Source: a virus
DNA length: 20,585 nt
Virus record (IMG/VR): IMGVR_UViG_3300006875_000221
Coordinates: 1 to 20,585 of that record
Strand: one strand, 5' to 3'
The position numbers were made by a program, and so were the translations under genes. Below are positions 14 to 20,585 of the stretch, piece by piece; within the stretch, counting starts at the first letter, position 1, and the number at the start of each line of letters is the position of its first letter. Below the pieces are notes generated by a model that did not search any database, had not been told where the DNA came from, and saw only the letters and a list, made by a program, of their open reading frames with translations.

Positions 14-1948
14 ATGCCATTAGTAAACTTTTCAAATCTGGATTTTGACCAGATTAAAACATCAATAAAAGATTATTTAAGATCTAATTCTAATTTTACG
101 GATTATGATTTTGAAGGATCTAATCTTTCAACAATTCTTGATGTTTTGGCATATAATACCTATATCACTTCATATAATGCAAATATGGTTGCAAATGAAG
201 TGTTTATTGATAGTGCTACTTTAAGAGAGAATGTTGTCGCACTAGCAAGAAATATAGGTTATATTCCAAGATCAAGAAAAGCAGCAATTGCTACTATATC
301 ATTTTTTGTTAATACATCAAGTTTACCTGATGGAAATAGAATTGCTTCATTAACATTAAAAAAAGGATCCGTAGCAAGTACCCCCGGCAGTTTTGGAAGT
401 CAGTCTTTTGTATTTTCAATTTTAGATGATATTACAGTTCCCGTTGTAAATAATATTGCAGAATTTAATGATATTAAAATCTATGAGGGAATATTATTAT
501 CAACTAATTTTACTTACAATTCAAACATTCCAAATCAAAGATTTATATTACCAAATTCTGGAATTGATACTGAATTAATTTCAGTAAGAATAAGAGATAC
601 AGTCACAGATTCTTCTTCCGTTAAATATAGACTACAGGATAATGTTTTTGATGTAAATAAAGAGTCTAAAGTTTATTATCTTCAAGAAATTGAAGATGAA
701 AGATATGAATTAATTTTTGGCGATGGTGTTTTATTTGGTAAAAAATTAGAAAATAATAATTATATTGAAATTAACTATATTACATCAAATGGAGATGCTG
801 CAAATGGTATATCTCAATTTAACTTTTCGGGAAGATTATCTTATACAAGGAATGGTATAGATTATAATGTAACTTCGGGAATATCATTGTTAACCACTGG
901 GGTTAGTTCTCAAGGGGGGCAAAATATTGAATCTGTCGAATCAATCAAAAGATATGCTCCAAGAATTTATGCATCACAAAATAGAGCATTGTCTGCAAAT
1001 GATTATGAAACTTTAATCCCAAATAAGATATATCCAGAAACAGAGTCAATATCAGTTTTTGGGGGAGAAGAATTAATTCCTCCTCAGTATGGAAAGGTTT
1101 TTATTAGCATTAAACCAAGAACAGGCGATTTTCTTCCAAATTTAATTAAACAGAATATTAAAAGAGATCTAAAAAAATATGCCGTTGCTGGAATAGTACC
1201 GGAAATTTTAGATTTAAAATATTTGTTTATTGAAACAGATTCTAAAATTTATTATAATACAAATCTTGCACCAAGTCCTGCATATGTTTCGAGTATTATT
1301 CAATCAAACACAAATAAATATTCGGAATCCACAGAATTAAACAAATATGGAGCCAGATTTAAATATAGTAAATATTTGAAAATAATAGATGATAGTCACG
1401 AATCAGTGACTTCAAATATTACCAAAGTTCAAATGAGAAGGGATTTAAGAGTTGTTTTAAATGCCTTTGCAGAATATCAAATTGGTTTTGGTAATGAATT
1501 CCATATTAAGAGTATGGATGGATATAATATTAAGTCTTCTGCATTTAAGGTAACAGATTTCCAAGATCTGGTATACCTTTCAGATATACCAGATACAAAT
1601 AGAACTACTGGTTCTATATTTTTATTTACTGTTCCAAATGTAAATTCTACTTCTTCAACAATTGTAAAAAGAAATGTAGGATCAATAGACTATAAAAAAG
1701 GAATTATTACCTTAAATCCTATTAATATATTGTCGGGAAAAATAAAAGATGGACAAAGTATTATTGAAATATCAGCAATTCCACAATCAAATGATGTAAT
1801 TGGATTGCAGGATTTATATCTTCAACTAGATATTAGTAATAGTATTTTTGAGATGGTTCCTGATGATATTTCATCAGGTCTTGATCCATCAGCATCTAAC
1901 TATATTGTAACATCAAGCTACAGCAACGGAAATTTAGTAAGATCATAA
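14..1948 (+). CDS. 6: baseplate wedge protein gp6
   Basis: Homologue of T4 gp6, which in T4 dimerises and links neighbouring wedges into the inner ring around the hub and takes part in sheath contraction. The length is 644 residues against about 660 in T4. The N-terminus carries the family signature YDFEGS (residues 31-36), followed by a Leu-rich segment and LAYNT (45-49). T4 gp6 has YDFEGS and LLAYNT at the same place. Further matches are the block ITSNGDAANG (256-265; T4 has ISTNGADANG) and the N-DYETL motif near residue 330 (T4: TDYDTF). No signal peptide or membrane segment is visible, as expected for a virion protein. The ATG at 14 immediately follows a possible upstream stop and gives a full-length N-terminus. 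The gp7 start lies 4 bases after its stop. Identification is from recalled T4 sequence, not a database search. Confidence 0.93.
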   Translation: MPLVNFSNLDFDQIKTSIKDYLRSNSNFTDYDFEGSNLSTILDVLAYNTYITSYNANMVANEVFIDSATLRENVVALARNIGYIPRSRKAAIATISFFVNTSSLPDGNRIASLTLKKGSVASTPGSFGSQSFVFSILDDITVPVVNNIAEFNDIKIYEGILLSTNFTYNSNIPNQRFILPNSGIDTELISVRIRDTVTDSSSVKYRLQDNVFDVNKESKVYYLQEIEDERYELIFGDGVLFGKKLENNNYIEINYITSNGDAANGISQFNFSGRLSYTRNGIDYNVTSGISLLTTGVSSQGGQNIESVESIKRYAPRIYASQNRALSANDYETLIPNKIYPETESISVFGGEELIPPQYGKVFISIKPRTGDFLPNLIKQNIKRDLKKYAVAGIVPEILDLKYLFIETDSKIYYNTNLAPSPAYVSSIIQSNTNKYSESTELNKYGARFKYSKYLKIIDDSHESVTSNITKVQMRRDLRVVLNAFAEYQIGFGNEFHIKSMDGYNIKSSAFKVTDFQDLVYLSDIPDTNRTTGSIFLFTVPNVNSTSSTIVKRNVGSIDYKKGIITLNPINILSGKIKDGQSIIEISAIPQSNDVIGLQDLYLQLDISNSIFEMVPDDISSGLDPSASNYIVTSSYSNGNLVRS

Positions 1949-7900: not shown

Positions 7901-10760
7901 ATCTTCAAAAAATAGTATAGACTTTGAAGTTAAAAAATCTGGTGTTATAGGAATTGATAATAATGCTAAAGTTTCTATTTTAATTAATGATAATATCCCA
8001 CAAAAACTTTTTTATAACTTAGATAAAGTTTATTCTGGTGGAACTCTTCCCGAAGAAAAAGAACAAATTATTGTGGACTCTTCAGTATATTCAAATAATG
8101 AACTTCAAATAGTAGAAAGTGAATATAATGGAGAGCATCAAATTATATCTATTGGATCCTCCGCATTTGTATATAATTTACCAAGTGTTCCAGAAAAAAA
8201 TTCTTATAGTTTGGGAATTTCATCTATAAGATATGAAACTAATTCTTTGTCTGCTTTTGGACCAATAACTAAAATAAAAATTGATTCCAAAGGAAAAAAT
8301 TACTATAGTCTTCCAAAGTTTTCTAAAGTTATTACAAATTATGGATCTGGTGCAATTTTAGAAGCAATAAGCAACTCTATAGGAAAAATTAATAAAGTTA
8401 AAATTGAAGACATTGGATTTAATTTCCCTTCAGATCTTACTCTACGTCCAAATTTATCTCTTCCTCAAATTTTAAAAGTAGAACCACTAAATTCATTTAA
8501 ATCAATTGGAATTACTTCTACAGGAAATGGATATAACACTGTTCCCAAATTAATAGTTCTTGATGGAAGCACTAGAAATATCTTGTCTGAGGTAGATCTT
8601 AAATATTCTCTTGGAGATACTGAAGTTCAAATTTTAAACAATACATATCGTCTTAATAATATTGCTCCAATTATTATTCCGACTCAAAATACAAATGGTG
8701 TGGGAATTAGTTCAATATCATTCAATTCTATAACTAAAGATGTTACTGTAGTTTTAAATGTTGGATATAGTACAGAATCTTCATTCCCATTTTCTATTGG
8801 AGATAAAGTTTTAATTGAAAATATTAATGTTGGAGTAAATTCTGATGGAAAGGGGTATAATTCAGAAAACTATAATTATCAATTATTTACACTTACTGCT
8901 GTTGATAAAAATATTGGAGGGGAATATGGGTCTGTAGTTTACAATATGAGTGATTTTTTAAATTCAGGAGAGTATCCAGGAAATTGTGATTTTGAAAATT
9001 CAGCAGGAAGAATAATTGCAGAAAAATTCTTCCCAATATTTAATCCAACTCTAAAACCAAATGATTTTATTAAGAATGAAAAAATTAAATATTTTGGAGA
9101 TTCTTTATCACTAGGATTTGTTCAAAATTGGAATACTAAAATTAAGTTACTAACAATATCATCTAAAGAATCAATAGGTTTAGGGAAAATATTGGAGGGA
9201 GTTTCTTCTAGAACTCAAGGTAAAATATCTGAAATTATTTCCCCAGAATCTTTTGCAAATACAAATTCTTTTTCAAAAGTTGAAAATGGATGGATTACTG
9301 AAACTGGAATTTTAAATAATGAAATTCAAAAAATTCAAGATAATTTTTATTATCAGAATTTTTCATATTCCTTAAAATCTAAAGTTTCATATGATACCTG
9401 GAGTGATGCTGTAGGATCTCTAAATCATATCGCAGGATTTAAAAAATTTAGTGATTACCAACTAGAATCGTATACTGTTTCTGGAATTAGAACTGACGCT
9501 ATTTCTACTATTGATGTATCTGTAGATATTGATGGATTTGCTAGTTTAAATTGCGTATACGATTATGATCTTGCTAAAGAGAACGCCCTGTTCATTAATT
9601 CTAATATTGTTTCAGATGAAATAACTTTTTCAAGTAGAATTTTAATGGATTATTATGAGTCTGTTGGAAATAGAGTGTTGCTAATAGATGATATCAGCAG
9701 ATTTTTTAATAATAATGAACGTTTAACGAATTATTCTGAAATTTATAGATTCCCCCTAATTAATGCAAGATCTCAAAAATATGTCACTTATATAAGAGAT
9801 AGGAGATATACATCACAAAGACAATTAATGTTATTAACTTTATTACATGACAATGTACGAGGATATATAAATCAATATGCACGAGTTGAAACTTATTATG
9901 ATCTAGGTTCTTTTGATTTTTCAATAAGTGGGAATGAAGGATCAATATTATTCTATCCCACAAAATATAAAGTTAATGATTATGATGTAACAGTTTTAGT
10001 TTATAATATTAAAGATACTTTTTCTGGAGTTGGTACAACTTCCATTGGTGGAATTGTAAATATTGAAACTAAAACTACTTATGCTGCTTCCTCTACAACA
10101 ATACTTGGTATATCTACAAGTTATACTTCATCAAAAGTTTTAGTTGGTGCATCAGCAACTAATGGAAAATATCAATATAATGAGTTGAATATAATTCATG
10201 ATGGATCAAACATTGAATATTTTTCCTACGGACAATTAACAAATCATTCTTCTGATGCATATTCAAATTCCGGACTTGGTACATATTATGGATATATATC
10301 TGGATCTACTTTAAATATTGACTTTATTCCAAATACAGGTATCGCCGCATCAGTTAGTACTATTTGTGTCTCGATAGCAGATACTTTTGCTTCCGGAATA
10401 GGAACTTTTAATACGGACTATATAAAATTTGAAGCAAATTCAACTTCAATTGCATCTTCAATTTCTCCAGTTTCTAATGTTATTGGAGAATACTCTGATA
10501 ACTATGATGGTGGATACTTTTTAGTTCAAGTATCAGATGTGACAAATAATCGACACCAATTATCTGAAGTTGTAGTCGTTGATGATGAAGTGAATGCATA
10601 TCTTACGGAATATGCTAATTTAGAAACTCATTCTGGACTGGGAACAGTTGGAGTATCTAAAACTACAAACAAAACACAGTTATTATTTACGCCTATTCCA
10701 AATATTGAAACTAAAGTTAAAGTTTGTTTTAATTCACTTAGTAATATTATTAATCCATAG
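1953..10760 (+). CDS. 7: giant baseplate wedge protein gp7 with YHYH domain and repeat modules
   Basis: Homologue of T4 gp7, the wedge protein that in T4 binds gp10, gp8 and the gp6 ring. Residues 16-35 (LPSYVKEEFPLVAEFLKQYY) and 211-235 (KDFYSTRGT, then a segment ending LYGEDV) match T4's PDSYL...FEAFCEAYIQY and YDFYSTKGIEASYKFLFKVLYNEEV. In T4 this core lies in the C-terminal part of a 1032-residue protein; here it is N-terminal in a 2935-residue protein (about 320 kDa, estimated). Then follow: ID-E-I modules (about 71-121, 345-400, 1589-1635); His-x-Phe/Leu modules (His491, 608, 858, 968, 1524, 1704, 1815, 1870); Gly-x-Gly-Tyr modules (about 755-825, 1070-1175, 2100-2200); a YHYH domain (about 1200-1365); a DN-YYQ-FSY segment (about 2442-2495); and a C-terminal triplicate (2625-2935). 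No membrane or catalytic motif is evident. The frame is unbroken. No clear Shine-Dalgarno precedes the ATG, so translation may be coupled to gp6, 4 bases upstream. Confidence 0.85.
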   Translation: MKAKRIQFNNILQNQLPSYVKEEFPLVAEFLKQYYISQEFKGAPTDLIQNIDQYIKLNEIKDNSDSTTLKSNVSFLDDAILVESTIGFPDSYGLIQIDNEIITYLSKTEDSFVNCIRGFSGVTSYNNQNTNDELVFKTPESKDLEFRSDNSSDHYVYVDNNELNEKTKVINLSSLFLKEFFNKIKYQLTPGFESREFYSGLDKYFFLKQSKDFYSTRGTDLSFKILFKALYGEDVKVIRPQDYLIKPSDAQYNITNDLLVESISGDPYELLNSTLKQDEYGNIPKGYAQISNVEKIFSGLEKSFYKLSFDAGYNRDIRVEGALYGTFTVHPQTKLIGTVSPGEDTFTVDSTVGFPLQGDLLVTYNDGTEGVISYTSKSINQFFGCQNILKPILDESDISLNVYAYGQSNIDPTKNIKVRITSVLKDVDIVDDTYFQEPNNIGIIKTLGANPTDIVSNSWIFNIPKNYSIKNPIKLIDSSDYTYELTTETDHNFIIGDVISIVSSDGSSIDSTITNIISNRIFQINGQGEIDLNVFYSIKNKIKKVNSQIYPFLTNQTSDIQNVYKKKEKTLVASSSLPSYKIECLDKSLDFSGTFIGDTFIFDSITDHSFYTGDSIYYKPNSSSPVLAEGVYFVARVNSNGSITNVGTSNRLKFAKSRDLLYDAINNNSNNSKFIFYEKETLVSDGKIVAFDFYNQKQDLQKKLSSQKLFREISPPINGGEEYTTNPGITGMLVNGVEILNYKSKDKIYYGEIEQIDIVNSGQDYDIINPPILQISDSVGTGATGYCAVKGSLQSIRIVDPGFDYIETPKINITGGNGSGAKAYPVMKLIDHEVLFNSESQSEIVNISNNTIGFTTYHRFRNYERVVYKTDNQKGIGGISTNSSYYVSVKDSYTISLHKSLDDSISGINTVPLTSYGVGNHIFKSYNKKSVVASINIENSGQDYENKKRTADPELINIYLNEIEIKNHGFKSGEIITYSNNGSVIGGLTNNTNYYVTTLDDDRFKISLVGVGTDNQDFYYQTKQYIEFTSIGSGVHIFNYPQISVEVIGKVGISSVAGNSFTAKVQPIFRGQITSVHLKSGGVGYGSSEIINFNRVPSVTLNSGTDANLVPVINNGKIVDVLINNSGNSYNSPPNLSIITNGNGRGCVLTPILENGQIKSVNIIESGAGYDRNNTFILVNPAGQRAELKAKLKTWTINLFKKYLNIIKKDDGIVFYNPITEYDLEFVHLYAPRQLRENIYCKEFGGKVLYGTPDLIKNSDGKEILSQEHSPIIGWAYDGNPIYGPYGYSKKDGGLVTKMKSGYDEIIQSNRPSQSIFPVGFFVEDYQYISNNDESTLDENNGRFCVTPDFPNGTYAYFATIEEIYSDSFGGYVLPKFPYLIGDKFKSSPNQFNYKRLSNQDNINLNETDWVRNTSPYNIYKDLNSYSYIYFPNLLNQTFKIKNVSSGSIENIGIVTGGANYKVNDSIVFDSDGTRGFGLSSKVSRIGGKLVNTISVATTSIYGVEIFPDSRKKDSFIVESDYPHNFLNRDKVSISGLNTSSFLNDDFYVVGVSSNTFAISDPLGIGSIAATGIVTYFSVSGNIAYSNINENDILKIGNEQVKILNLDKKSSRIRVLRSVNGSVGSSHSYSDILYENPRRFSINVKNFNSYNQKRNKELYFNPVESLGIGTVSGVGIGTLITFSNPGVGITQIFIPTKTIYIPDHELETGDSLIYSSNGGSEISVSNNGITTTSLSNNSIVYVAKISNDLIGISTVKVGLGSTGVFVGIASTTNTISTLYFTGIGTNTYHSFKTNYSNLTGNVYKNIVTVSTAQTHGLKDTDTVFVNVNPGLTTTVIVKYDDVNKRILINPKSFYSSGINTSESSIFIENHGFKNGDKIVYNSPSPSVGLANNKIYYIVSFDKDKVKLSNSYYSSISFNPEIVKINSTSNGTLSLINPPIKAYKNSLINFDLSDSSLSYTNGPEKYPAFDLNFYIDSNYTEIFRSSKNSIDFEVKKSGVIGIDNNAKVSILINDNIPQKLFYNLDKVYSGGTLPEEKEQIIVDSSVYSNNELQIVESEYNGEHQIISIGSSAFVYNLPSVPEKNSYSLGISSIRYETNSLSAFGPITKIKIDSKGKNYYSLPKFSKVITNYGSGAILEAISNSIGKINKVKIEDIGFNFPSDLTLRPNLSLPQILKVEPLNSFKSIGITSTGNGYNTVPKLIVLDGSTRNILSEVDLKYSLGDTEVQILNNTYRLNNIAPIIIPTQNTNGVGISSISFNSITKDVTVVLNVGYSTESSFPFSIGDKVLIENINVGVNSDGKGYNSENYNYQLFTLTAVDKNIGGEYGSVVYNMSDFLNSGEYPGNCDFENSAGRIIAEKFFPIFNPTLKPNDFIKNEKIKYFGDSLSLGFVQNWNTKIKLLTISSKESIGLGKILEGVSSRTQGKISEIISPESFANTNSFSKVENGWITETGILNNEIQKIQDNFYYQNFSYSLKSKVSYDTWSDAVGSLNHIAGFKKFSDYQLESYTVSGIRTDAISTIDVSVDIDGFASLNCVYDYDLAKENALFINSNIVSDEITFSSRILMDYYESVGNRVLLIDDISRFFNNNERLTNYSEIYRFPLINARSQKYVTYIRDRRYTSQRQLMLLTLLHDNVRGYINQYARVETYYDLGSFDFSISGNEGSILFYPTKYKVNDYDVTVLVYNIKDTFSGVGTTSIGGIVNIETKTTYAASSTTILGISTSYTSSKVLVGASATNGKYQYNELNIIHDGSNIEYFSYGQLTNHSSDAYSNSGLGTYYGYISGSTLNIDFIPNTGIAASVSTICVSIADTFASGIGTFNTDYIKFEANSTSIASSISPVSNVIGEYSDNYDGGYFLVQVSDVTNNRHQLSEVVVVDDEVNAYLTEYANLETHSGLGTVGVSKTTNKTQLLFTPIPNIETKVKVCFNSLSNIINP
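2583..2670 (+). other. conserved gp7 core motif (KDFYSTRGT region)
   Basis: This encodes residues 211-239 of the giant protein: KDFYSTRGT, a hydrophobic helix-like stretch, then LYGEDVKV. The order and spacing match the T4 gp7 segment containing YDFYSTKG and LYNEEVEI. It is the best single piece of evidence that the 2935-residue protein is gp7 rather than a tail fibre. Confidence 0.8.
4215..5477 (+). repeat. Gly-x-Gly-Tyr protein modules, first set in gp7
   Basis: Degenerate protein-level repeats read I-x-(S/P)G-x-x-Y, then PP or P-x-hydrophobic strand, then a G-x-G-(S/T/R)G turn, then K/N-G-x-I before the next copy. Copies begin at SGQDY (residue 761), PGFDY (801), SGQDY (940), SGGVGY (1080), SGNSY (1126) and SGAGY (1166). 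The DNA is too diverged for recent duplication, so the repeat is kept at protein level. The pattern suggests a beta-strand/turn fold. Further copies occur near residues 1456, 2112 and 2190 and in the next two genes. Confidence 0.65.
5550..6047 (+). other. YHYH-type domain inside gp7
   Basis: Residues about 1200-1365 contain EHSPIIGWAYDGNPIYGPYG (1268-1287), then about 60 residues later GRFCVTPDFPNGTYAYFAT (1342-1360). The H-S-x-I-x-G-x-A-x-D-G-x-P-I-Y-G-P-x-G-Y pattern followed by a G-(T/L)-Y-x-Y-F/H segment is the hallmark of the YHYH domain family. That family is found in bacterial secreted proteins and in phage structural proteins, and its biochemical role is not firmly known to me. Here it is in frame within a baseplate protein and flanked by beta-rich modules. 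It could bind a ligand or metal, or could be purely structural. Confidence 0.75.
9825..10757 (+). repeat. C-terminal HD/EYA/LGT repeats of gp7 (three copies)
   Basis: The last 310 residues hold three diverged copies of one domain, spaced about 117 and 128 residues apart. The copies start at LLHDNVRGYINQYA (His2632), IIHDGSNIEYFSYG (His2749) and VVDDEVNAYLTEYA (Asp2877). Each continues with a (D/G)LG(S/T) turn, then a (L/I)-x-F-x-P strand, then a V-x-V strand. The first two end in (K/A)DTF(S/A)SG(V/I)GT-like sequence; the third ends at the protein terminus. I recall similar units in other marine phage virion proteins. No function is assigned. Confidence 0.65.
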
Positions 10761-10780
10761 TAAATTTATGAATATACCTT

Positions 10781-10786
10781 AAGGAG
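10781..10786 (+). promoter_or_regulatory. strong Shine-Dalgarno site for the 1089-residue gene
   Basis: AAGGAG lies six bases before the ATG at 10793, a near-ideal ribosome binding site. It fixes the start of that gene, since no in-frame ATG upstream fits. It stands out because the other starts in this window have weak or no such sequence. It sits in a 32-base spacer, the longest here. Confidence 0.85.
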
Positions 10787-10792
10787 AAAAAA

Positions 10793-13700
10793 ATGTCAAT
10801 AGGAGATTTTCTTACATCTGGTTATGGAATTTACTATGGAACCGAAAGAGATATTAAACGGTCTTTTGATTTAAAACATAAAAATTTTCCAATTTTTAAA
10901 AGATCTTTTGATGCAAGTGATCCTAGTATTGTAAGTATTGGTTCTAGTATCATTAAAATTCAAAATCATTTTTTCGTAACTGGAGAAAAAGTTACTTATT
11001 CTGTGGGGGTTTCAACAAATTCCCCAATTGGTATAGGAACTACAGATTTTGGAGTGGGAATAGGAACTACAGATAAATTACCATCTTTAGTTTATATTAT
11101 TAAAGTTGATGATAATAATATAAAATTAGCTAGAAATGCTGAGGAAGCTTTAAAAACAATACCAATTCCATTGAAATTAACTTCAGTAGGAATAGGATCT
11201 AATCATTCTTTTACCACAACTAATAAAAATCCAAAATTATTACTTTCTATAGATAATGTAATTCAATCTCCAATTGTATCATCTTCAACCACATCTAATT
11301 TATTATATAATTTTTCTACAATAGATGATATATTATATTCAAATTCTGTTACTAACTTTTTTATAGGAGATTTTATTCAAATAGATAATGAGATAATGAA
11401 AGTAGAGTCTGTTGGTGTTGGGTCAACAAATTCAATTAGAGTGATTCGTCCTTGGTTAGGCACAGAACTTGATAACCATTCAATAGGGTCTACTATAACA
11501 AAAGTAGTTGGCAATTATAATATTGTAGAAAACACCATTCATTTTGTAGATGCCCCTTATGGAAATGTTCCATTAAGCACTACAACAAATCCTCCAGATG
11601 AACAAGATTGGGTTGGAATTTCTACGGGATCAACTTTCCACGGAAGAGTATTTATGAGATCTGCAGAAGCAGATACTTTAAACGATCCGTATTATAAAAA
11701 TAATGTTTTTGATGATGTATCTTCTCAGTTTAATGGAGTTAATAAATCTTTTGTATTGACTGCAAATAAATCAAATGTAACTGATATTTACCAAGAAAAT
11801 GCTGTTATACTAATTAATGACATTTTTCAAGGTCCAGGTCTTCAAAGTAATTACACTTTAGATGAAGTATCTGGTATAACATCTGTTACTTTTATTGGTT
11901 CTCCAATTTCTTTATCTTCGGATATTAATACATCAGATTTTCCTTCAGGTGGAATAATTGTTTCGGTAGGTTCAACAGAAGGACTTGGGTATCAACCACT
12001 AATCTCTGCAGGAGGAACTGCAATTATTTCCGGATTTGGTACAATTTCATCTATTAGTATTGGTAATAGTGGTTCTGGATATAGAGCAGGAATTCAAACA
12101 GTTAGAGTTGGGGTTTATACTACAGATTCTTCAAATATTCAATTTGTAGGAACTGCTTCAATAACCAATGGTAGAGTTGTTGGAGTTTCTGTCACAAATC
12201 CTGGTGTTGGATACACAATAACAAGTCCACCAAAAGTTATTTTCGATTCTCCTTTATCATATTCGGGCATTCCACTAATTTATTCTTCAACATCTTCAGG
12301 AATAGGAACTCAAGCAACAATAGATATTGTTGTTGGACAAGGATCTAGTGTAATTGAATATGAACTTAAAAATATTGGTTATGGATATAATGTCGGAGAC
12401 ATTTTAACTATACCAACAACAGGGTCCATAGGTATTCCTACAGTAATTGGATCTACGTTTAGAGAATTTCAAATTAGTGTTGATAGAACCTTTACTGATA
12501 AGTTTAGTGGATGGTCTTTAGGAGAAATTCAACCTCTTGATAATATTCAAAGATTATTTAATGGAACTAGAAAAGTGTTTCCTCTTTTGTTATTAGGCAA
12601 TTTAACCGCAATATATGCAAAAAAAGGTTCTCCGATTAGCATTCAGGACGTACTTTTAGTTTTTATAAATGATATATTACAAATTCCAGGAAAAGGTTAT
12701 ATTTTTAATGGCGGAAGTAAAATAGAGTTTACAGAACCACCCAAACCAGAAGATACTTGCAAAATTTTATTCTATAAAGGTAGCGGAGACGGTATTGATG
12801 TTATTTTCAGGGACATTTTAGAAACTATTAAAGTTGGAGATGATTTAACTTTAACGTATGATTCTTCTATAGGTCAACCTGCATATCTTTTAGAAGATCC
12901 AAGATTTGTATCTGATATATTATCTCTTGATACTGTAGAAACAAATCCATATTTTGGTCCTGGAAATACTAGTAATGAAACTCTTACGAGACCAATAACT
13001 TGGTGCAGACAAACCGAAGATTTGTTTATAAATGGACAAGAAATTGGAAAAAATAGAATTTTATATGAACCTCAAATTTATCCGGTAAGTTACTTAATAC
13101 AACCTGTTGGAGTAGGATCAAGCGTTATCTTTGTTGATAATATAAGGCCAATTTTCAATCCAATGAATGAAAATAATGTATCTTTAGAGTTCCAAAAAAA
13201 TGTTACTATAATTTCGCAAGATGTAAAAGTTTCTGCAAGTGCAACGGCAATTGTTTCTGCTGCAGGAACAATATCTTCAATAGTCATTAATGATAGTGGT
13301 TCTGGGTATGATAGTGTTCCAATAGTATCAATACAAAGTCCATTGGGAATATCGACAATAACAAGTACTGCAACTGCATTTATAACTTCTGGAATAGTAA
13401 CTTCAATTTCTATTACAGGAGTTGTAACGGGGTATTCCCAAGAAAATCCACCATCAATTTTGATTGAACCCCCAACTTTCCGTTATGAAAGCAATAAAGT
13501 AATATCATACTCTGGAGATTTTGGAGTCATAACAGGAATTTCTACAGTATCTGTTGGTGTTGCATCAACAGGAATTGTTTTTGATTTTGTAATTCCAAAA
13601 AATTCTTATTTTAGAGATGGTTTAGTTTCTGGAATTACTACTATAACAGGAATTACTACTATAAGTGGAATACAAACGGGGTATTATTTCGTTATATCAA

Positions 13701-14062
13701 ATTCAAATATTGGAAATGGAGTTACTTCTTTAAATTCAAGTGGATCTGTAATTGGTATTTCTACTAATTATTTGGATGGTGTTTATCAAGTTGCTTCAGT
13801 TTCAATTGCACAAACATCTGTTATTGGATTGGGTTTAACATATGTTGCAAAAGTTACGGTAAGTGTTTCTGATTATAATGGATTAACTGGTATTGGATAT
13901 AGTAATTATTATGGTGACTATAGTTGGGGAAGAATAGTATTACGTTCCAGATCAAAAGAAAATTCATATAGTGCATACACACTAAATGGATATAGTGGAA
14001 TTTCAACTGGAACTGTTATAAAGAGATCAGTACCATTAAAATATTTAAATTACACCTCATAA
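10793..14062 (+). CDS. baseplate-region structural protein of unknown role, between gp7 and gp8
   Basis: I do not recognise a T4 counterpart; in T4 gene 8 directly follows gene 7. The 1089-residue product has no signal peptide, membrane span or catalytic motif, and is rich in Gly, Ser, Thr, Ile and Val in short strand-turn patterns such as GIGTT and SVGVAS. In order: a His-x-Phe module (about 55-140, His59 to His138); an ID-E-I module (about 185-235, ending in RPWLGTELDNH); a first INDI-Q-PG unit (INDIFQGPG at 341-349); Gly-x-Gly-Tyr modules (424-430, 470-474, 527-532); a second INDI-Q-PG unit (INDILQIPG at 625-633, preceded by FNGTRKVF); and more Gly-x-Gly-Tyr modules (835-839, about 881). 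Three module types are shared with gp7, so it is probably a virion protein packed against gp7 or on the baseplate surface. A fibre or adhesin role is possible but unproven. The start is set by the AAGGAG site. Confidence 0.8.
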   Translation: MSIGDFLTSGYGIYYGTERDIKRSFDLKHKNFPIFKRSFDASDPSIVSIGSSIIKIQNHFFVTGEKVTYSVGVSTNSPIGIGTTDFGVGIGTTDKLPSLVYIIKVDDNNIKLARNAEEALKTIPIPLKLTSVGIGSNHSFTTTNKNPKLLLSIDNVIQSPIVSSSTTSNLLYNFSTIDDILYSNSVTNFFIGDFIQIDNEIMKVESVGVGSTNSIRVIRPWLGTELDNHSIGSTITKVVGNYNIVENTIHFVDAPYGNVPLSTTTNPPDEQDWVGISTGSTFHGRVFMRSAEADTLNDPYYKNNVFDDVSSQFNGVNKSFVLTANKSNVTDIYQENAVILINDIFQGPGLQSNYTLDEVSGITSVTFIGSPISLSSDINTSDFPSGGIIVSVGSTEGLGYQPLISAGGTAIISGFGTISSISIGNSGSGYRAGIQTVRVGVYTTDSSNIQFVGTASITNGRVVGVSVTNPGVGYTITSPPKVIFDSPLSYSGIPLIYSSTSSGIGTQATIDIVVGQGSSVIEYELKNIGYGYNVGDILTIPTTGSIGIPTVIGSTFREFQISVDRTFTDKFSGWSLGEIQPLDNIQRLFNGTRKVFPLLLLGNLTAIYAKKGSPISIQDVLLVFINDILQIPGKGYIFNGGSKIEFTEPPKPEDTCKILFYKGSGDGIDVIFRDILETIKVGDDLTLTYDSSIGQPAYLLEDPRFVSDILSLDTVETNPYFGPGNTSNETLTRPITWCRQTEDLFINGQEIGKNRILYEPQIYPVSYLIQPVGVGSSVIFVDNIRPIFNPMNENNVSLEFQKNVTIISQDVKVSASATAIVSAAGTISSIVINDSGSGYDSVPIVSIQSPLGISTITSTATAFITSGIVTSISITGVVTGYSQENPPSILIEPPTFRYESNKVISYSGDFGVITGISTVSVGVASTGIVFDFVIPKNSYFRDGLVSGITTITGITTISGIQTGYYFVISNSNIGNGVTSLNSSGSVIGISTNYLDGVYQVASVSIAQTSVIGLGLTYVAKVTVSVSDYNGLTGIGYSNYYGDYSWGRIVLRSRSKENSYSAYTLNGYSGISTGTVIKRSVPLKYLNYTS
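11030..11074 (+). repeat. 18-base direct repeat encoding GIGTTD
   Basis: GGTATAGGAACTACAGAT at 11030-11047 recurs at 11057-11074 with one base changed (GGT to GGA), a 27-base offset. The protein reads GIGTTDFGVGIGTTD. This is a recent in-frame duplication within the first His-x-Phe module of the 1089-residue protein. Confidence 0.85.
12035..12397 (+). repeat. Gly-x-Gly-Tyr protein modules in the 1089-residue protein
   Basis: Three copies are visible: SGSGYRAG (residues 426-433), PGVGYTITSPP (470-480) and GYGYNVGD (529-536). Each is preceded by an I/V-rich strand and followed by a P-x-hydrophobic strand or a D-I-hydrophobic strand. A further pair lies at 835-839 (SGSGYDSVP) and near 881 (VTGYSQENPP). 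They match the modules in gp7 and gp8. Confidence 0.6.
13631..13666 (+). repeat. 18-base tandem duplication
   Basis: Two adjacent 18-base copies (13631-13648 and 13649-13666) differ only in the last codon (ACA versus AGT) and encode GITTIT-GITTIS. The near-identity suggests recent slippage duplication within the 1089-residue gene; it keeps the frame. Confidence 0.85.
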
Positions 14063-14065
14063 ATA
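14058..14065 (+). promoter_or_regulatory. candidate T4-type late promoter element before gp8
   Basis: CATAAATA overlaps the TAA stop of the preceding gene and lies 17 bases before the gp8 ATG. It matches seven of eight bases of the T4 late promoter octamer TATAAATA, which is read by the phage gp55 sigma factor with gp45 and gp33. In an AT-rich genome such a match can arise by chance, but the intergenic placement is suggestive. A start about 5-8 bases downstream would leave a leader of only about 10 bases. Confidence 0.3.
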
Positions 14066-14082
14066 AATAAAAAACCCAACAA

Positions 14083-15624
14083 ATGTCCGCAATTATAACT
14101 GATCAGATTAGAATACTAAATGCTAAGAATTTTATTTCTGGAGTAACTACTTCAACGAATAACTATTATTCTTTTGTTGGATTACCAAATCCAGCAGATA
14201 TTCAAAGTGATTGGGACACTTCTCCTCCTGCACCAAAAGACAACTTTAATGAAGAGAATAATTATTGGGATACAATGATTGCTCTCAAAAAAATTACATC
14301 GTCAGATGTTCGTCAGGTTGTTCAAAAAAGAACATGGGTTTCTGGAAATACTTATGATTATTATAGACACGATTATAGTAGATCAAATGTAGCAAATGTT
14401 TCTGGATCAACAACTTTATATTCTTCCTCTTTTTATGTTTTAAACAGCGATTATAGGGTTTATATTTGTCTTCAAAATGGAACAGATCCAGATAATCCAA
14501 AAGGGAAACCTTCTCTTGATGAACCAACTTTTACTGATTTAGAACCAAGAGCAGCAGGAACTAGCGGCGATGGGTATATTTGGAAATATCTCTATACAAT
14601 TAAACCTGGTGATATTGTAAAATTTGAATCTACTGATTTTATGCCTGTTCCTTTAAATTGGGAGACTAGTATAGAAACAGCAGCAATAAGAAACAATGCA
14701 GTAGATGGATCATTAAAAACCATTATTATTACAAACAGAGGTGTTGGAGTAGGTGCAGCAAATAGAACTTATACTAGAGTCCCAATAAAAGGAGATGGAA
14801 CTGGAGCAGAGTGTACTATTACTATTAATAATGACCAACAAGTAGAATCTATAGTAGTATCAAATCAAGGATCTGGGTATACATATGGAAATGTTGATTT
14901 AGTATCAGGTAACGTTCCAACTGGTACAGTTTCTCCAACATTTGATGTTATAATTCCACCAAAAGGAGGTCATGGTGCAGATATTTATAGAGAATTGGGA
15001 GCATATAATGTTTTAGTTTATTCAAGAATTGAAAATGATACGGAAAATCCCGATTTCATAACAGGAAATCAGATTGCTAGAGTTGGTATTGTTGAAAATC
15101 CTGTTGTTTTTAAGCCCTCAGATAATAAGATAAGTGCAGTTTACGCTATTAAATTATCTGGAATAGGATATAGTTCTGCAGTTTTTTCTCCAGATTCTTT
15201 TATAACTCAAACAATAGGAACTGGAATTACTGCAGTAGGTAGAGTAATTAGTTATGATCAAACAACTTCTGTTCTAAAATACTGGCAAGATAGAACTTTA
15301 GCTGGATTTAGTACGGTGGGAATTGCACAATCTACTCCATTATATGGATATGAATTAAAAGAATTTACAAGTACTCCTTTAACTGGAGGAAGCGTAGTTA
15401 TTACCGGAAACACCGGAGCAACTTTATCAATAGATACTAATTTTTCTGGTATATCAACAACAATAAATAATAGAACCTACTATCTAGGACAAGATTTTGT
15501 AAATGGTCTATCAAATCCAGAAATCAAAAAATACTCTGGAAATATCATTTACGTTGATAATAGACCTTCTATTACTAGATCAATAAACCAAAAAGAAGAT
15601 ATTAAAGTCATTTTGCAGTTTTAA
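14083..15624 (+). CDS. 8: baseplate wedge protein gp8
   Basis: Homologue of T4 gp8, which in T4 is a dimer bridging gp7, gp6 and gp10 in each wedge. The product has 513 residues against 334 in T4. Matches include SGDGYIWKYLYTIKPGD (161-177; T4 has GDGYVWEYLFEIPPD), then MPVPLNW (187-193; T4 VVPWP). The C-terminus contains IIYVDNRPSITRSINQKEDI (488-507), where T4 gp8 ends with MIYMENRPPIIMAMDQTEEI and a short strand. The N-terminus has the family pattern of a short strand, NYYSFVG-like segment, W-D and WDTMIALKKI (65-74). Much of the extra length lies between residues about 200 and 300 and includes a Gly-x-Gly-Tyr module (213-266) like those of the two preceding genes. No good Shine-Dalgarno precedes the ATG (the upstream bases are AAAAACCCAACAA). 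The next gene begins 6 bases after the stop. Confidence 0.92.
   Translation: MSAIITDQIRILNAKNFISGVTTSTNNYYSFVGLPNPADIQSDWDTSPPAPKDNFNEENNYWDTMIALKKITSSDVRQVVQKRTWVSGNTYDYYRHDYSRSNVANVSGSTTLYSSSFYVLNSDYRVYICLQNGTDPDNPKGKPSLDEPTFTDLEPRAAGTSGDGYIWKYLYTIKPGDIVKFESTDFMPVPLNWETSIETAAIRNNAVDGSLKTIIITNRGVGVGAANRTYTRVPIKGDGTGAECTITINNDQQVESIVVSNQGSGYTYGNVDLVSGNVPTGTVSPTFDVIIPPKGGHGADIYRELGAYNVLVYSRIENDTENPDFITGNQIARVGIVENPVVFKPSDNKISAVYAIKLSGIGYSSAVFSPDSFITQTIGTGITAVGRVISYDQTTSVLKYWQDRTLAGFSTVGIAQSTPLYGYELKEFTSTPLTGGSVVITGNTGATLSIDTNFSGISTTINNRTYYLGQDFVNGLSNPEIKKYSGNIIYVDNRPSITRSINQKEDIKVILQF
14701..14880 (+). repeat. Gly-x-Gly-Tyr module inserted in gp8
   Basis: Residues 207-266 read I-I-I-T-N-R-G-V-G-V, then a TRVPIKGDGTGAECT turn, then VESIVVSNQGSGYTYGNV. 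This is the same strand, G-x-G-Y, P-x-hydrophobic, G-x-G-(T/S)GA, strand, G-x-G-Y order seen in gp7 and the 1089-residue protein. T4 gp8 as I recall it has no such segment. Confidence 0.6.
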
Positions 15625-15630
15625 AGAATT

Positions 15631-18600
15631 ATGTCTCAAGTCACTAATTTAAATGTATCTCCATATTTTGATGATTTTGATGCAAACAATGACTACTATA
15701 AAGTTCTCTTTAAGCCTGGATATCCAATCCAAGCAAGAGAATTAACAACACTCCAATCAGTATTACAAAACCAAATTGAAAAATTTGGGCAGCACTTTTT
15801 CAAAGAAGGTGCCAAAATTATTCCAGGCAATACTACATATAATCAATTTTTCTACGCAGTAGAACTCAATAATACATATCTTGGCGTTCCTATTGATGCA
15901 TATGTTGATCAATTAGTTGGTTCAAAAATTACAGGAGAAACTTCTGGAATTACTGCAGTAGTTGAAAAAGTTCTTTTATCAACAGATTCAGAAAGAGGCA
16001 ATACTACGTTATATGTAAACTATTTGAGTTCTAGTACACAAAATAATTCAACTGTTCAATTTTTAGACGGCGAAAATTTAATAACAAATATAACAATAAC
16101 TTCAGGACTTTTAGGAAATACTACAATTACTGCAGGAACTCCTTTTGGAATTACTATAGCAAATAGTTCAACTTCAACAGGTTCTGCATTTTCTATATCT
16201 GAGGGTATTTATTTTATTAGAGGATATTTTGTAAATGTATCTAGCGAAACTCTTATTTTAGATCAATATACAAATAACCCAAATTATAGAGTTGGTTTAT
16301 TTGTAAATGAAGAAATTATTAATTCTGATATAGATGAAACATTAAATGATAATTCACAAGGATTTAATAACTATGCTGCTCCAGGAGCGGATAGATTAAA
16401 AATCTCAGTATCTTTGTTTAAGAAAAATTTAACAGATTTAAATGATACAAATTTTGTAGAACTTGCAACCATAGAAAATGGAGTAATAAAAACAGTAAGA
16501 TCTTCTACCAACTACAGTTTAATACAAGATGAATTGGCTAGAAGAACATATGCAGAATCTGGTGATTATTATGTAACACCCTTTGATGTAAGTATTAAAG
16601 AATCTCTAAATGATGGTTTAGGAAATAAAGGTATATTTAATCCAGGACAATTTACTTATAATGGATCTGTAGTTTCTGATAACCTTGCAGTATACCAAAT
16701 TTCTCCAGGAAAAGCTTTTGTAAGAGGTTATGAAGTAGAAACAATATCTCCAGTATTTTTAGATTCTCCAAAACCAAGAACTACAGCATCTCTCAATAAT
16801 ATTGCAATTAATTACAATACAGGGTCTACTTTGACTCTCAATAGAGTACATGGATCACCTATAATTGGTATCGGAAATACTTATGTACTAAGTTTAAGAG
16901 ATTCTAGAGTTGGATCAGCATCAACTACACCTGCCGGAAAAGAAATTGGTATTGCTAGAGTTTATGATTTTAGATTGGAATCTGGATCATATGAAATAGA
17001 TTCCGACCTTAATAGATGGGGAATTTCTTTATATGATATCCAAACTGTTACTGAAATAACTTTGAATGAACCAATAACATTAAACACACCTTCATTCTTT
17101 AAAGGAAAAAGTAGCGGAGCAACAGCTTTTCTTAAAAATTCGGTAACAAATAGTAAATCAATATCTTTATATCAAAAGAATGGAGATTTCGTTCCTTTTG
17201 AATCTTTTATTATAGATGGAATAGAAAACAGCAGAGTTGCAACAGCAATAACTTCATATAGTATTTCTGATGTTAAATCTGTTTATGGAATAGTTGGGAC
17301 GGCAAAAACTTTTAATGCAGATACAGTACAATCTGAATTTTTTAATGTAGGATTTGCTACTATTACTCCTTCTAGTAGTGGAATTAGTACAATAATAACT
17401 AATAATCCAAACTTTCCAGGAAATATTGTTAAGGTAGGAAATTTAGTAAAATTTAGTACTACAGATGCTCAAGATCCAGTTTATGCAAATGTAGTAAGTG
17501 TAGGAAATACTTCTGTAACAATTTCTGGGATTGCTACTGTAACTGGCATAAATCAAGGAGGTCTTTCTACAAGTCTTCTTACAGTTTTTGATTTGAAATT
17601 ATTATCGACTAGTTTATCAAGATCTAATGATGACACTTTATATACTGCATTACCTAGACCAAATGTTGCTTCTATAGATTTAACTGAAGCATCTTTAACT
17701 ATTAGAAAAACATATCCTGTCGTTATTTCTGGTGGTCAACTTTCAACTCAAGTTGTTGCGAGCACTAATGAAACATTTTTGCCTTTTGACGAAGAAAGAT
17801 ATTCTTTAATTAGATCTGATGGTTCAACAGAAGTTTTAACCTCCGATAAATTAGATTTTATTGATGGTTCAACAAAACTTCAAATTTATGGATTAGGTTC
17901 TAATGATCCTTCTGCGACTTTAGTTGCTACTTTAAGAAAAATAAAACCAAAATCAAAAATTAAATTAAAAAATAGAGTTTCTTCAATTATTGTAAATAAA
18001 TCAAAATATTCTTCTTCAGGAATAGGTTCAACAACTCTTAATGATGGTTTAATATATGGAAATTATCCATATGGAACTAGAGTTCAAGATGAAACTATTT
18101 GTTTAAATGTACCTGATATTATTAATGTTTATGGTGTGTATGAATCAAGAACAACCCAAGATCCATCAGCACCAACTTTAGTTTTATCTTCAATAACAGG
18201 ACCAACTACAAAAACAACTGACTTAATAATTGGAGAGCAATTTACAGGACAATTAAGTGGTGCAATAGGAGTTTATGCCGAAAGGTTAACAGATTCTCAA
18301 ATATCTTTTATTCCATTAAATGAAAATACTTTTAAAGAAGGAGAATCTATAGTTTTTTCTGAATCAAATTTACAAGCAGTAATTGTTACAATAGATTCTT
18401 CCAGCTCTAACATTTCTTCCAATTTTAAATTTGATAATGGACAAAAAGGATCTTTTTATGGATATGGAACTATAAATCGTACAGCATCATCAATAGAACC
18501 TTCAAAAAGAATAAAAATATATTATTCAAGTGCATATTATCAAAATGAAGATGATGGAGATATCACGACCATATCATCATATTCTGGATTTGATTATAAA

Positions 18601-20585
18601 AAAGATATTCAAATTAGCAATTCAATAAGAAATTCAGATATTATTGATATTAGACCAAGAGTTTCAAATTATTCTGTTTCAGAAAATTCAAGATCACCTC
18701 TAGAATTTTATGGTAGAAGTTTTAATGCTTCTGGAAATTCTGCCGCTAATATTTTGGCGTCTGATGAAGAAATTATTGCAACATTCTCATATTATCTTGG
18801 AAGAATTGATAGGATCTATATTAGAAAAGATGGTACATTCCAAGTTAAATATGGAGTTCCTTCAGAAAAACCAGAAAAACCAATATCAGTAGATGATGCA
18901 TTAGAAATAGCTAAAGTTATTTTACCACCTTATCTTTTTGATATATCTCAAGCATCACTTGAATTTCTTGATCACAAAAGATATAGAATGTCTGATATTA
19001 AACAACTTGAAAATAGAATTAAAAGTTTAGAATATTATACTTCATTATCTTTATTAGAATCAAATACTGCAAATCTATTTGTTGCAGATTCTAGTGGGTT
19101 AGATAGATTTAAATCTGGATTTTTTGTTGATAATTTTAGTTCTTTAACTTCCCAAGAAAATGGAATTCCTTTTGAAAACAGCATTGATTTTAAAAACAAT
19201 GAATTAAGACCAAAACATTATACGACAGCAGTTGACTTGATTCAAGGTCCCGTTGAAGGAGTATCATCACAGGAAGATCTTTTATTCCAAATTCCGCAAG
19301 GAAATAATATTAGAAAAACTGGAGATCTAATAACACTAGATTATTCTGAAGTTGAATGGATAAAACAATCTTTATCTACAAGAACAGAAAATGTAACACC
19401 ATTTGTAATTAGTTTCTGGCAAGGGACTATTGAATTGATGCCTTCCTCCGATACTTGGGTAGATACAGTTAGACTTGATGCAAAAATAATTAATACTGAA
19501 GGAAATTACTCTCAAGTAATGGCTCTTGCATCACAGCAATTTGGAGTAGATCCCCAAACTGGATATGCACCTACTGTTTGGGGGGCATGGGAAACAAATT
19601 GGACAGGAAAGGAAGTCATAGAAACTGTTAAAATAAGTAGCGATACTTCATATAAACACGGATATTATGGGTATTATGGATACTGGTGGAGGGGATATCC
19701 ATATGGTTACTATGGTTACTATGGGTATTGGGGATACTATGGATATTATGGAAGATATTGGGGATATTATGGCGCTGTTACCACAGTAACTCAAGATACT
19801 TATAGAGAAACTAAAGAAACAGGAGTACAATCTAGAACTGGAACAACCACATATGTTACAGAACAGATTGATACAACATCAATAGGGGATAAAGTTGTAA
19901 GTAGAAATTTAATACAATATTTAAGATCAAGAAACATCCAATTTGTAGCTAAAAATGTTAAACCATTAACACAAGTTTATTGTTTCTTTGATGGCATTGA
20001 CGTAACAAAATATTGTACTCCAAAACTTTTAGAAATTCAAATGATTTCTGGAGTGTTTGAAATTGGAGAAACAGTAATAGGATCTATTACAAAAACTGGA
20101 CTGGATGAGACAACTTTAAATGAAAGTAGTCCCCAAATTACTTTTAGAGTTGCCCAACCGAATCATAAAGAAGGTCCATATAATATCCCAACTTCAACTT
20201 ATACAGTAAGTCCATACACAAATCAAACAATTCCAGCAATTTATTCTTCCACAAGTAATGTATTAAATATTGATACATTTTCTCTTTGTGCTCAATATCA
20301 AGGAGAGTATAGTGGATGGGTACAACAAAATATGACTTTAGTTGGAAAAACTAGTGGCGCCCAAGCAACTATCACAAATGTAAGATTAGTTTCAGATGTA
20401 TATACATCTTTGATAGGAAGTTTTTACATACCAAATCCAAATGTAACTACTAATCCAAGATTTGAAAATGGTTCTAAAACATTTACTATAATAAACAATG
20501 AAATAAATGATAAAAATCTTGCATCTACTGTTGCAGAAGAAACTTTTATTTCTAGTGGAACTATAGAAACTGTACAAGAAAATAT
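15631..20585 (+). CDS. DUF4815-family virion structural protein (partial, 3' end outside window)
   Basis: The frame is open from ATG 15631 to the window edge: 1651 codons plus two bases, with no stop. The N-terminus (VSPYFDDFD..., then FKPGYPIQARELTTLQSVLQ at 27-46) and GDYYVTPFDV (311-320), ISPGKAFVRGYEVE (357-370) and KPRTTA (382-387) are the pattern I know from DUF4815 proteins. These are common in marine T4-like phages and annotated as tail or virion structural proteins. Farther on are YYLGRIDRIYIRKDG (1054-1068), a short coiled-coil-like helix (about 1117-1143, RYRMSDIKQLENRIKSLEYY), WQGTIELMPSSDTWVDT (1263-1279), the Tyr/Gly/Trp tract (1343-1381), and YLRSRNIQFVAK then FFDGIDVTKYC (about 1430-1462). 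No signal peptide or membrane span. By position after gp8 it may occupy the periphery where T4 has gp9/gp10, perhaps for fibre attachment; this is inference. The preceding gap is 6 bases with only a weak AAAGA upstream, so coupling to gp8 translation is likely. Confidence 0.85.
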   Translation, partial: MSQVTNLNVSPYFDDFDANNDYYKVLFKPGYPIQARELTTLQSVLQNQIEKFGQHFFKEGAKIIPGNTTYNQFFYAVELNNTYLGVPIDAYVDQLVGSKITGETSGITAVVEKVLLSTDSERGNTTLYVNYLSSSTQNNSTVQFLDGENLITNITITSGLLGNTTITAGTPFGITIANSSTSTGSAFSISEGIYFIRGYFVNVSSETLILDQYTNNPNYRVGLFVNEEIINSDIDETLNDNSQGFNNYAAPGADRLKISVSLFKKNLTDLNDTNFVELATIENGVIKTVRSSTNYSLIQDELARRTYAESGDYYVTPFDVSIKESLNDGLGNKGIFNPGQFTYNGSVVSDNLAVYQISPGKAFVRGYEVETISPVFLDSPKPRTTASLNNIAINYNTGSTLTLNRVHGSPIIGIGNTYVLSLRDSRVGSASTTPAGKEIGIARVYDFRLESGSYEIDSDLNRWGISLYDIQTVTEITLNEPITLNTPSFFKGKSSGATAFLKNSVTNSKSISLYQKNGDFVPFESFIIDGIENSRVATAITSYSISDVKSVYGIVGTAKTFNADTVQSEFFNVGFATITPSSSGISTIITNNPNFPGNIVKVGNLVKFSTTDAQDPVYANVVSVGNTSVTISGIATVTGINQGGLSTSLLTVFDLKLLSTSLSRSNDDTLYTALPRPNVASIDLTEASLTIRKTYPVVISGGQLSTQVVASTNETFLPFDEERYSLIRSDGSTEVLTSDKLDFIDGSTKLQIYGLGSNDPSATLVATLRKIKPKSKIKLKNRVSSIIVNKSKYSSSGIGSTTLNDGLIYGNYPYGTRVQDETICLNVPDIINVYGVYESRTTQDPSAPTLVLSSITGPTTKTTDLIIGEQFTGQLSGAIGVYAERLTDSQISFIPLNENTFKEGESIVFSESNLQAVIVTIDSSSSNISSNFKFDNGQKGSFYGYGTINRTASSIEPSKRIKIYYSSAYYQNEDDGDITTISSYSGFDYKKDIQISNSIRNSDIIDIRPRVSNYSVSENSRSPLEFYGRSFNASGNSAANILASDEEIIATFSYYLGRIDRIYIRKDGTFQVKYGVPSEKPEKPISVDDALEIAKVILPPYLFDISQASLEFLDHKRYRMSDIKQLENRIKSLEYYTSLSLLESNTANLFVADSSGLDRFKSGFFVDNFSSLTSQENGIPFENSIDFKNNELRPKHYTTAVDLIQGPVEGVSSQEDLLFQIPQGNNIRKTGDLITLDYSEVEWIKQSLSTRTENVTPFVISFWQGTIELMPSSDTWVDTVRLDAKIINTEGNYSQVMALASQQFGVDPQTGYAPTVWGAWETNWTGKEVIETVKISSDTSYKHGYYGYYGYWWRGYPYGYYGYYGYWGYYGYYGRYWGYYGAVTTVTQDTYRETKETGVQSRTGTTTYVTEQIDTTSIGDKVVSRNLIQYLRSRNIQFVAKNVKPLTQVYCFFDGIDVTKYCTPKLLEIQMISGVFEIGETVIGSITKTGLDETTLNESSPQITFRVAQPNHKEGPYNIPTSTYTVSPYTNQTIPAIYSSTSNVLNIDTFSLCAQYQGEYSGWVQQNMTLVGKTSGAQATITNVRLVSDVYTSLIGSFYIPNPNVTTNPRFENGSKTFTIINNEINDKNLASTVAEETFISSGTIETVQEN
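19657..19773 (+). repeat. Tyr/Gly/Trp-rich low-complexity tract
   Basis: Thirty-nine codons (residues 1343-1381 of the DUF4815 protein) encode, by count, 19 Tyr, 12 Gly, 4 Trp, 2 Arg, 1 His and 1 Pro, mostly as Y-Y-G or Y-W-G triplets. At DNA level it is an imperfect 9-base repeat (TATTATGGA-like). All four Gly third bases and both Tyr codons appear, so the protein pattern persists despite silent drift. It lies between two conserved segments, as an insertion or loop. Reading the opposite strand gives only a low-complexity shadow frame. Confidence 0.9.

Follow-up and report, generated by a model that had tools for sequence, protein, structure and literature searches.

A tyrosine-, glycine- and tryptophan-rich tract at the predicted hairpin tip of a VrlC-type phage baseplate protein

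The baseplate protein described here carries, at the tip of a long predicted beta-hairpin, a tract of 39 residues built largely from tyrosine, glycine and tryptophan. The protein itself is already known; the Tyr/Gly/Trp tip is a lineage-specific variant of it, and we found no description of this type of tip in the literature searched. We propose that in one clade of phages the tip would form a hydrogen-bonding aromatic contact surface, most likely touching the host, a reading to which we assign a probability of slightly under one half. The features on which the analysis rests are collected in Table 1.

Table 1. Features of the window, defined as the whole 20,585-nucleotide stretch of DNA analysed.
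Feature	Position	Strand	Evidence
gp6-like baseplate wedge protein	14..1948	+	Pfam Gp6-like, phrog_219
gp8-like baseplate wedge protein, directly upstream of the DUF4815 gene	14083..15624	+	Pfam Phage-Gp8, phrog_438
DUF4815/VrlC-type (phrog_358) baseplate protein	15631..20585, cut by window end	+	Pfam, PHROG, contig L021
Left flank WGAWETNWTG, highly conserved	19579..19608	+	Alignment, 56 relatives
Predicted up-strand of hairpin (model residues 318-337)	19591..19650	+	AlphaFold2; also in pLDDT 52 model
Tyr/Gly/Trp tract, hairpin tip	19657..19773	+	Translation and AlphaFold2 model (residues 339-376, pLDDT <50)
Imperfect 9-base repeat in tract, 5.7 copies	19702..19752	+	Repeat analysis
Predicted down-strand of hairpin (model residues 380-398)	19777..19833	+	AlphaFold2
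Right flank TGVQSRTG, highly conserved	19819..19842	+	Alignment, 56 relatives

The tract, its protein and its virus

In frame with the open reading frame starting at 15631, the tract translates to HGYYGYYGYWWRGYPYGYYGYYGYWGYYGYYGRYWGYYG. It comprises 19 Tyr, 12 Gly, four Trp, two Arg, one His and one Pro; Tyr and Trp together make up 59%, exactly as originally predicted. Finding at least 23 of these two residues among 39 has a binomial probability of ~9e-20 against the background of the remaining baseplate protein, where they account for 5.3%. The second-densest stretch of this length in the same protein holds nine aromatics; in the other proteins of the window the maximum is 12. The repeat that had been suspected from a 9-base periodicity is real, with 78% matches between its copies.

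The gene runs off the end of the window, and the remainder is contained in contig L021, which agrees with the window base for base over 14003-20585. The complete protein there is 2519 amino acids long from its ATG. It matches Pfam DUF4815 (PF16075) with an E value of 3e-55 and 187.9 bits, where the gathering score is 30, and it belongs to phrog_358, which bears out the earlier view of a DUF4815 virion-type protein. Homologues of gp6 and gp8 lie upstream, placing the gene in a baseplate wedge cluster, and the order gp8 then DUF4815 recurs in the cyanophages S-SM2 and Bellamy, where the product is annotated as VrlC or as a structural protein. The closest solved relative is ORF65, a baseplate protein of Staphylococcus phage phi812 (sequence E value 1.6e-46), and superposition of our model on ORF65 (9euf) gives a VIA-align Z of 10.6 with an rmsd of 12.5 over 168 aligned. 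VrlC is an integral component of two-layered baseplates (PMC7029224), and the VriC of Ackermannviridae resembles the baseplate proteins of A511 and phi812 (PMC11721090). By homology, then, the tract-bearing protein is a DUF4815/VrlC-type baseplate component. The VrlC (VriC) proteins of cyanophages, pelagimyophages and Ackermannviridae form one family with phi812 ORF65 (PDB 9euf, 9eui, 9euj). Judged by the sequence alignments, the counterpart of the hairpin (residues 1320-1400 of the window's protein) should fall roughly between chain residues 610 and 674 in 9euf (pre-contraction) and 9eui (post-contraction). The gene lies beside gp8, as in cyanomyophages, and the cyanophage protein, at about 2500 amino acids, is much larger than ORF65 with 1152. 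Proteins of this type are core components of the baseplates of T4-like cyanophages and pelagimyophages.

The gp6-like and gp8-like genes of the window are T4-like baseplate genes, as in Kyanoviridae-like viruses. Two long contigs with a Tyr/Gly/Trp tip, G027 (205 kb) and G028 (284 kb), each carry two Photo_RC (PF00124) genes, and the clade therefore includes cyanophages. Photo_RC genes are present in a more distant relative, G018, as well. The shorter contigs searched contained no photosystem genes, and the window is itself a 20.6-kb fragment, too short to show them. Judged by its own baseplate genes and by the photosystem genes of its clade, the tract-bearing virus is a T4-like cyanophage.

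Selection on the peptide and its residue alphabet

The nearest relative that differs from the window is L177, with 85% DNA identity. Over 38 tract codons there are 14 synonymous differences and no non-synonymous one, where unconstrained change should have produced about 9 to 10 amino-acid replacements; zero was not reached once in 5000 simulations for each value of kappa. The NG86 dN of the tip lies well below dS in all eleven pairs tested, with dS near saturation in several of them and the gapped pairs dependent on the alignment. On these comparisons the tract is selected as a peptide. The original prediction had proposed such selection and had argued for it from varied synonymous codons. The proposal holds; the argument does not, for the tract (Tyr TAT 15, TAC 4) uses Tyr and Gly codons much as the genes of the window do in general, and codon diversity is thus no proof of selection. 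A DNA or RNA structure as the selected element is rejected because the synonymous sites vary freely. We also considered a diversity-generating retroelement and set it aside; the changes are mostly synonymous and at third positions.

At longer distances it is the residue alphabet, more than the exact sequence, that is kept in the aligned tips. In 19 tips with 642 residues in total, Tyr provides 40%, Gly 28% and Trp 15%, and Arg, Asn, His and Pro most of the remainder, these seven together reaching 97%. There is no Asp or Glu and a single Phe; aliphatic residues are almost absent, while Arg, His and Lys occur. The aromatics are exchanged in a selective manner. In eight disjoint pairs we counted 19 Tyr-Trp and no Tyr-Phe exchanges in the tips, against three and 15 in the flanks (Fisher P 9e-8), and this although a Tyr-Trp exchange takes two base changes and a Tyr-Phe exchange one.

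Two other explanations may be weighed against these data, and we regard both as improbable. A disordered loop might suffice as a flexible spacer, its exact residues hardly mattering. The varying length of the tip among relatives and the lack of structure there in the model would suit this, yet in a spacer Phe, Asp, Glu and aliphatic residues should be tolerated, and 38 residues should not stay constant across 14 synonymous changes. Alternatively, the tip could be a membrane-interface probe, which would steady the baseplate by inserting Trp, Tyr, Arg and His among the lipid headgroups of the host's outer membrane. Such a role is compatible with the absence of acidic residues, the near-absence of aliphatics and the presence of Arg, His and Lys, but there is no amphipathic pattern, Gly is abundant, and the composition equally suits contact with a glycan or a protein.

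Exchange of the tip on a conserved hairpin base

The AlphaFold2 model calculated from 124 diverse rows has a mean pLDDT of 76, as a single chain with a pTM of 0.48; an earlier model from a shallow alignment had a pLDDT of 52. The tract links the two strands of the predicted long hairpin. Of the four segments with pLDDT <50 it is the longest, ahead of residues 157-166, 194-199 and 249-256. Conserved segments lie on either side of it in the alignment, in agreement with the original prediction, for which a buried position would have been fatal; the model presents the tract as a low-confidence hairpin tip and not as part of a confidently packed core. Since this is a model of one chain with a pTM of 0.48, we infer, and do not observe, that the tip is surface-exposed in the virion. 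A Foldseek search with the model returned weak matches only, the phi812 baseplate ranking first, and immunoglobulin-like structural matches (VIA-align Z <8) were set aside as common arrangements. A sequence search of the PDB with the tract alone detected no relative, and Pfam searches of the protein gave no match at the tip, carbohydrate-binding modules included.

How variable is the tip? Between the flanks, 74 distinct relatives have 30 to 146 residues, and distant ones still fewer; the tips of homologues range from a few residues to more than 100, on flanks that are well conserved. Most combine abundant Gly with Arg or a Trp, others are rich in Ser and Thr, and one group has His-x-His, while L157 and L162 have almost no tip. 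Relatives thus swap the chemistry of the VrlC hairpin tip on a conserved base. The His-x-His type (HSHDGG, HNHRHG) is seen at the equivalent position in L006, L284, L287, L288, L290 and L292; in other phage needles and fibres this motif binds metal at trimer axes.

Tyr/Gly/Trp tips were found in contigs at no less than roughly 67% identity, and all fall within one 19-row clade with an SH-aLRT of 100, in quick trees for which SH-aLRT is the support measure. Within the clade the aromatic tip is missing in L023 alone and less pronounced in L083 and L029, a distribution that a single gain and a single loss, the latter in L023, could explain. The fold does not need the tip, as is shown by L023 and by those relatives whose tip is only a few residues long. 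As the alignments have it, the base of the hairpin is conserved and the tip is a replaceable module. Scanning 2.9 million viral contigs with a DNA pattern for YGYYGYYGY yielded 23 stretches. Those truly encoding the peptide are mostly at this baseplate site, and two are unrelated, in phage open reading frames with YYG or GYG repeats (L174 around 7181-7207, L178 around 8296-8322). No phage isolate examined at this position has a Tyr/Gly/Trp tip.

Apart from L023, the clade shares the tract, with a length of about 17 to 45 residues. It had also been predicted to be a likely site of length variation. This is so among relatives, but rapid repeat-driven change between close ones is not seen: there is no tract indel between the window and L177 (38 codons, 85% DNA identity), or between L016 and L018 (98%). 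Recent slippage of the repeat without function would account for the 9-base periodicity; it is refuted by the comparison with relatives, in which the tract is clade-wide, dN is well below dS and close relatives show no change of length. Nor is the tract missing from close relatives with near-uniform codons, as such slippage noise would be. What does distinguish L016 from L018 is a four-codon block closing the tract, GWHR in one and RRRW in the other, at the same length. In L186 the Tyr/Gly/Trp core is flanked by Thr/Ser-rich arms of ~50 residues on each side (L186:1140-1590), and the same protein has a second low-complexity insert of Ala, Gln and Thr (L186:2440-2600) before a conserved DPLAQSF segment.

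A possible contact surface

What might the tip touch? The base is kept while the tip is exchanged, the peptide is selected, Tyr and Trp are used without Phe, and relatives lacking the tip are viable; these observations suggest a contact surface and not a spacer or a core element of assembly. In this clade a flexible Gly backbone would carry Tyr and Trp side chains with a few Arg, His and Asn, and the hydrogen-bonding aromatics would stack on a partner. The most likely partner would be the outer surface of the host, with its glycans, proteins or other components, encountered when the baseplate comes to rest on the cell. Putative carbohydrate binding fits the preference for Tyr and Trp over Phe.

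There is a precedent by analogy in the gp38 adhesins of long tail fibres of the T2, S16 and PP01 type, which likewise have a Gly-rich scaffold, variable loops and Tyr important for contact with receptor or LPS (PMC12892980). In phage PP01, the Gly-rich receptor-binding tips of gp38 contain essential Tyr residues, and Tyr and Lys lie near LPS sugars (PMC12892980). Phages can therefore use Gly-rich tips with Tyr to contact receptors and LPS. The baseplate tip is probably not a member of the gp38 group, differing from it in protein, fold and location in the virion. Adhesins of that group have a poly-glycine-II sandwich domain with recognition loops; gp38 is not among the listed fold matches of the model, in which the tip itself is unmodelled (pLDDT <50) and could still form such a domain. 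In composition only, the tract is like silk-like, phase-separating and Gly-rich antimicrobial Tyr/Gly segments and like binding loops of a minimal Tyr/Ser/Gly alphabet, as known in general; unlike the Tyr/Gly low-complexity segments, it is inserted where a hairpin of a phage baseplate protein has its tip. The adhesive, silk-like or phase-separating character raised in the original prediction gained no support from the analysis.

Two considerations count against contact with the host. Receptor binding is usually the task of tail fibres. The fibre genes of pelagimyophages and cyanomyophages lie in a host recognition cluster adjoining VrlC (PMC7029224). Further, a single-chain model (pTM 0.48) allows for burial of the tip against other virion proteins. 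The main rival is a partner inside the virion. The aromatic tip would act as a clasp, packing on its own copies or on an adjacent protein of the baseplate or a fibre, and would stabilize assembly or the pre-contraction state, with the type of tip following the partner. Homology makes the protein a baseplate component, the strong constraint between the window and L177 suits a fixed partner, and the His-x-His tips of some distant relatives recall the metal-binding motif of needles and fibres. Against a clasp stand the near-absence of a tip in L023, nested in the clade, and in L157 and L162, and the wide repertoire of tips. We judge it a possible explanation, clearly less probable than a surface facing the host.

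If the tip does contact the host, the baseplate of abundant aquatic phages would have a host-interaction site not described in the literature searched. A bolder version, which we hold to be doubtful, is that the tip is a natural minimal-alphabet surface of Tyr, Gly and Trp with a few Arg, His and Asn, in which Tyr and Trp interchange freely and Phe and acidic residues are excluded, and which would be, in this one cyanophage clade, an adhesin for the host surface in its own right, distinct from the tail fibres.

Elsewhere in the window, tandem stops at 10757-10793 split the gp7-like wedge initiator into open reading frames of 2935 and 1089 amino acids; in the relatives L363 and L364 it is a single frame of about 3900-4000 amino acids. 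This looks like a clean gene fission, although an assembly error could also produce it at a site covered by one copy of the virus. The second gp7-like reading frame begins anew in a different frame, its start preceded by an AAGGAG ribosome-binding site.
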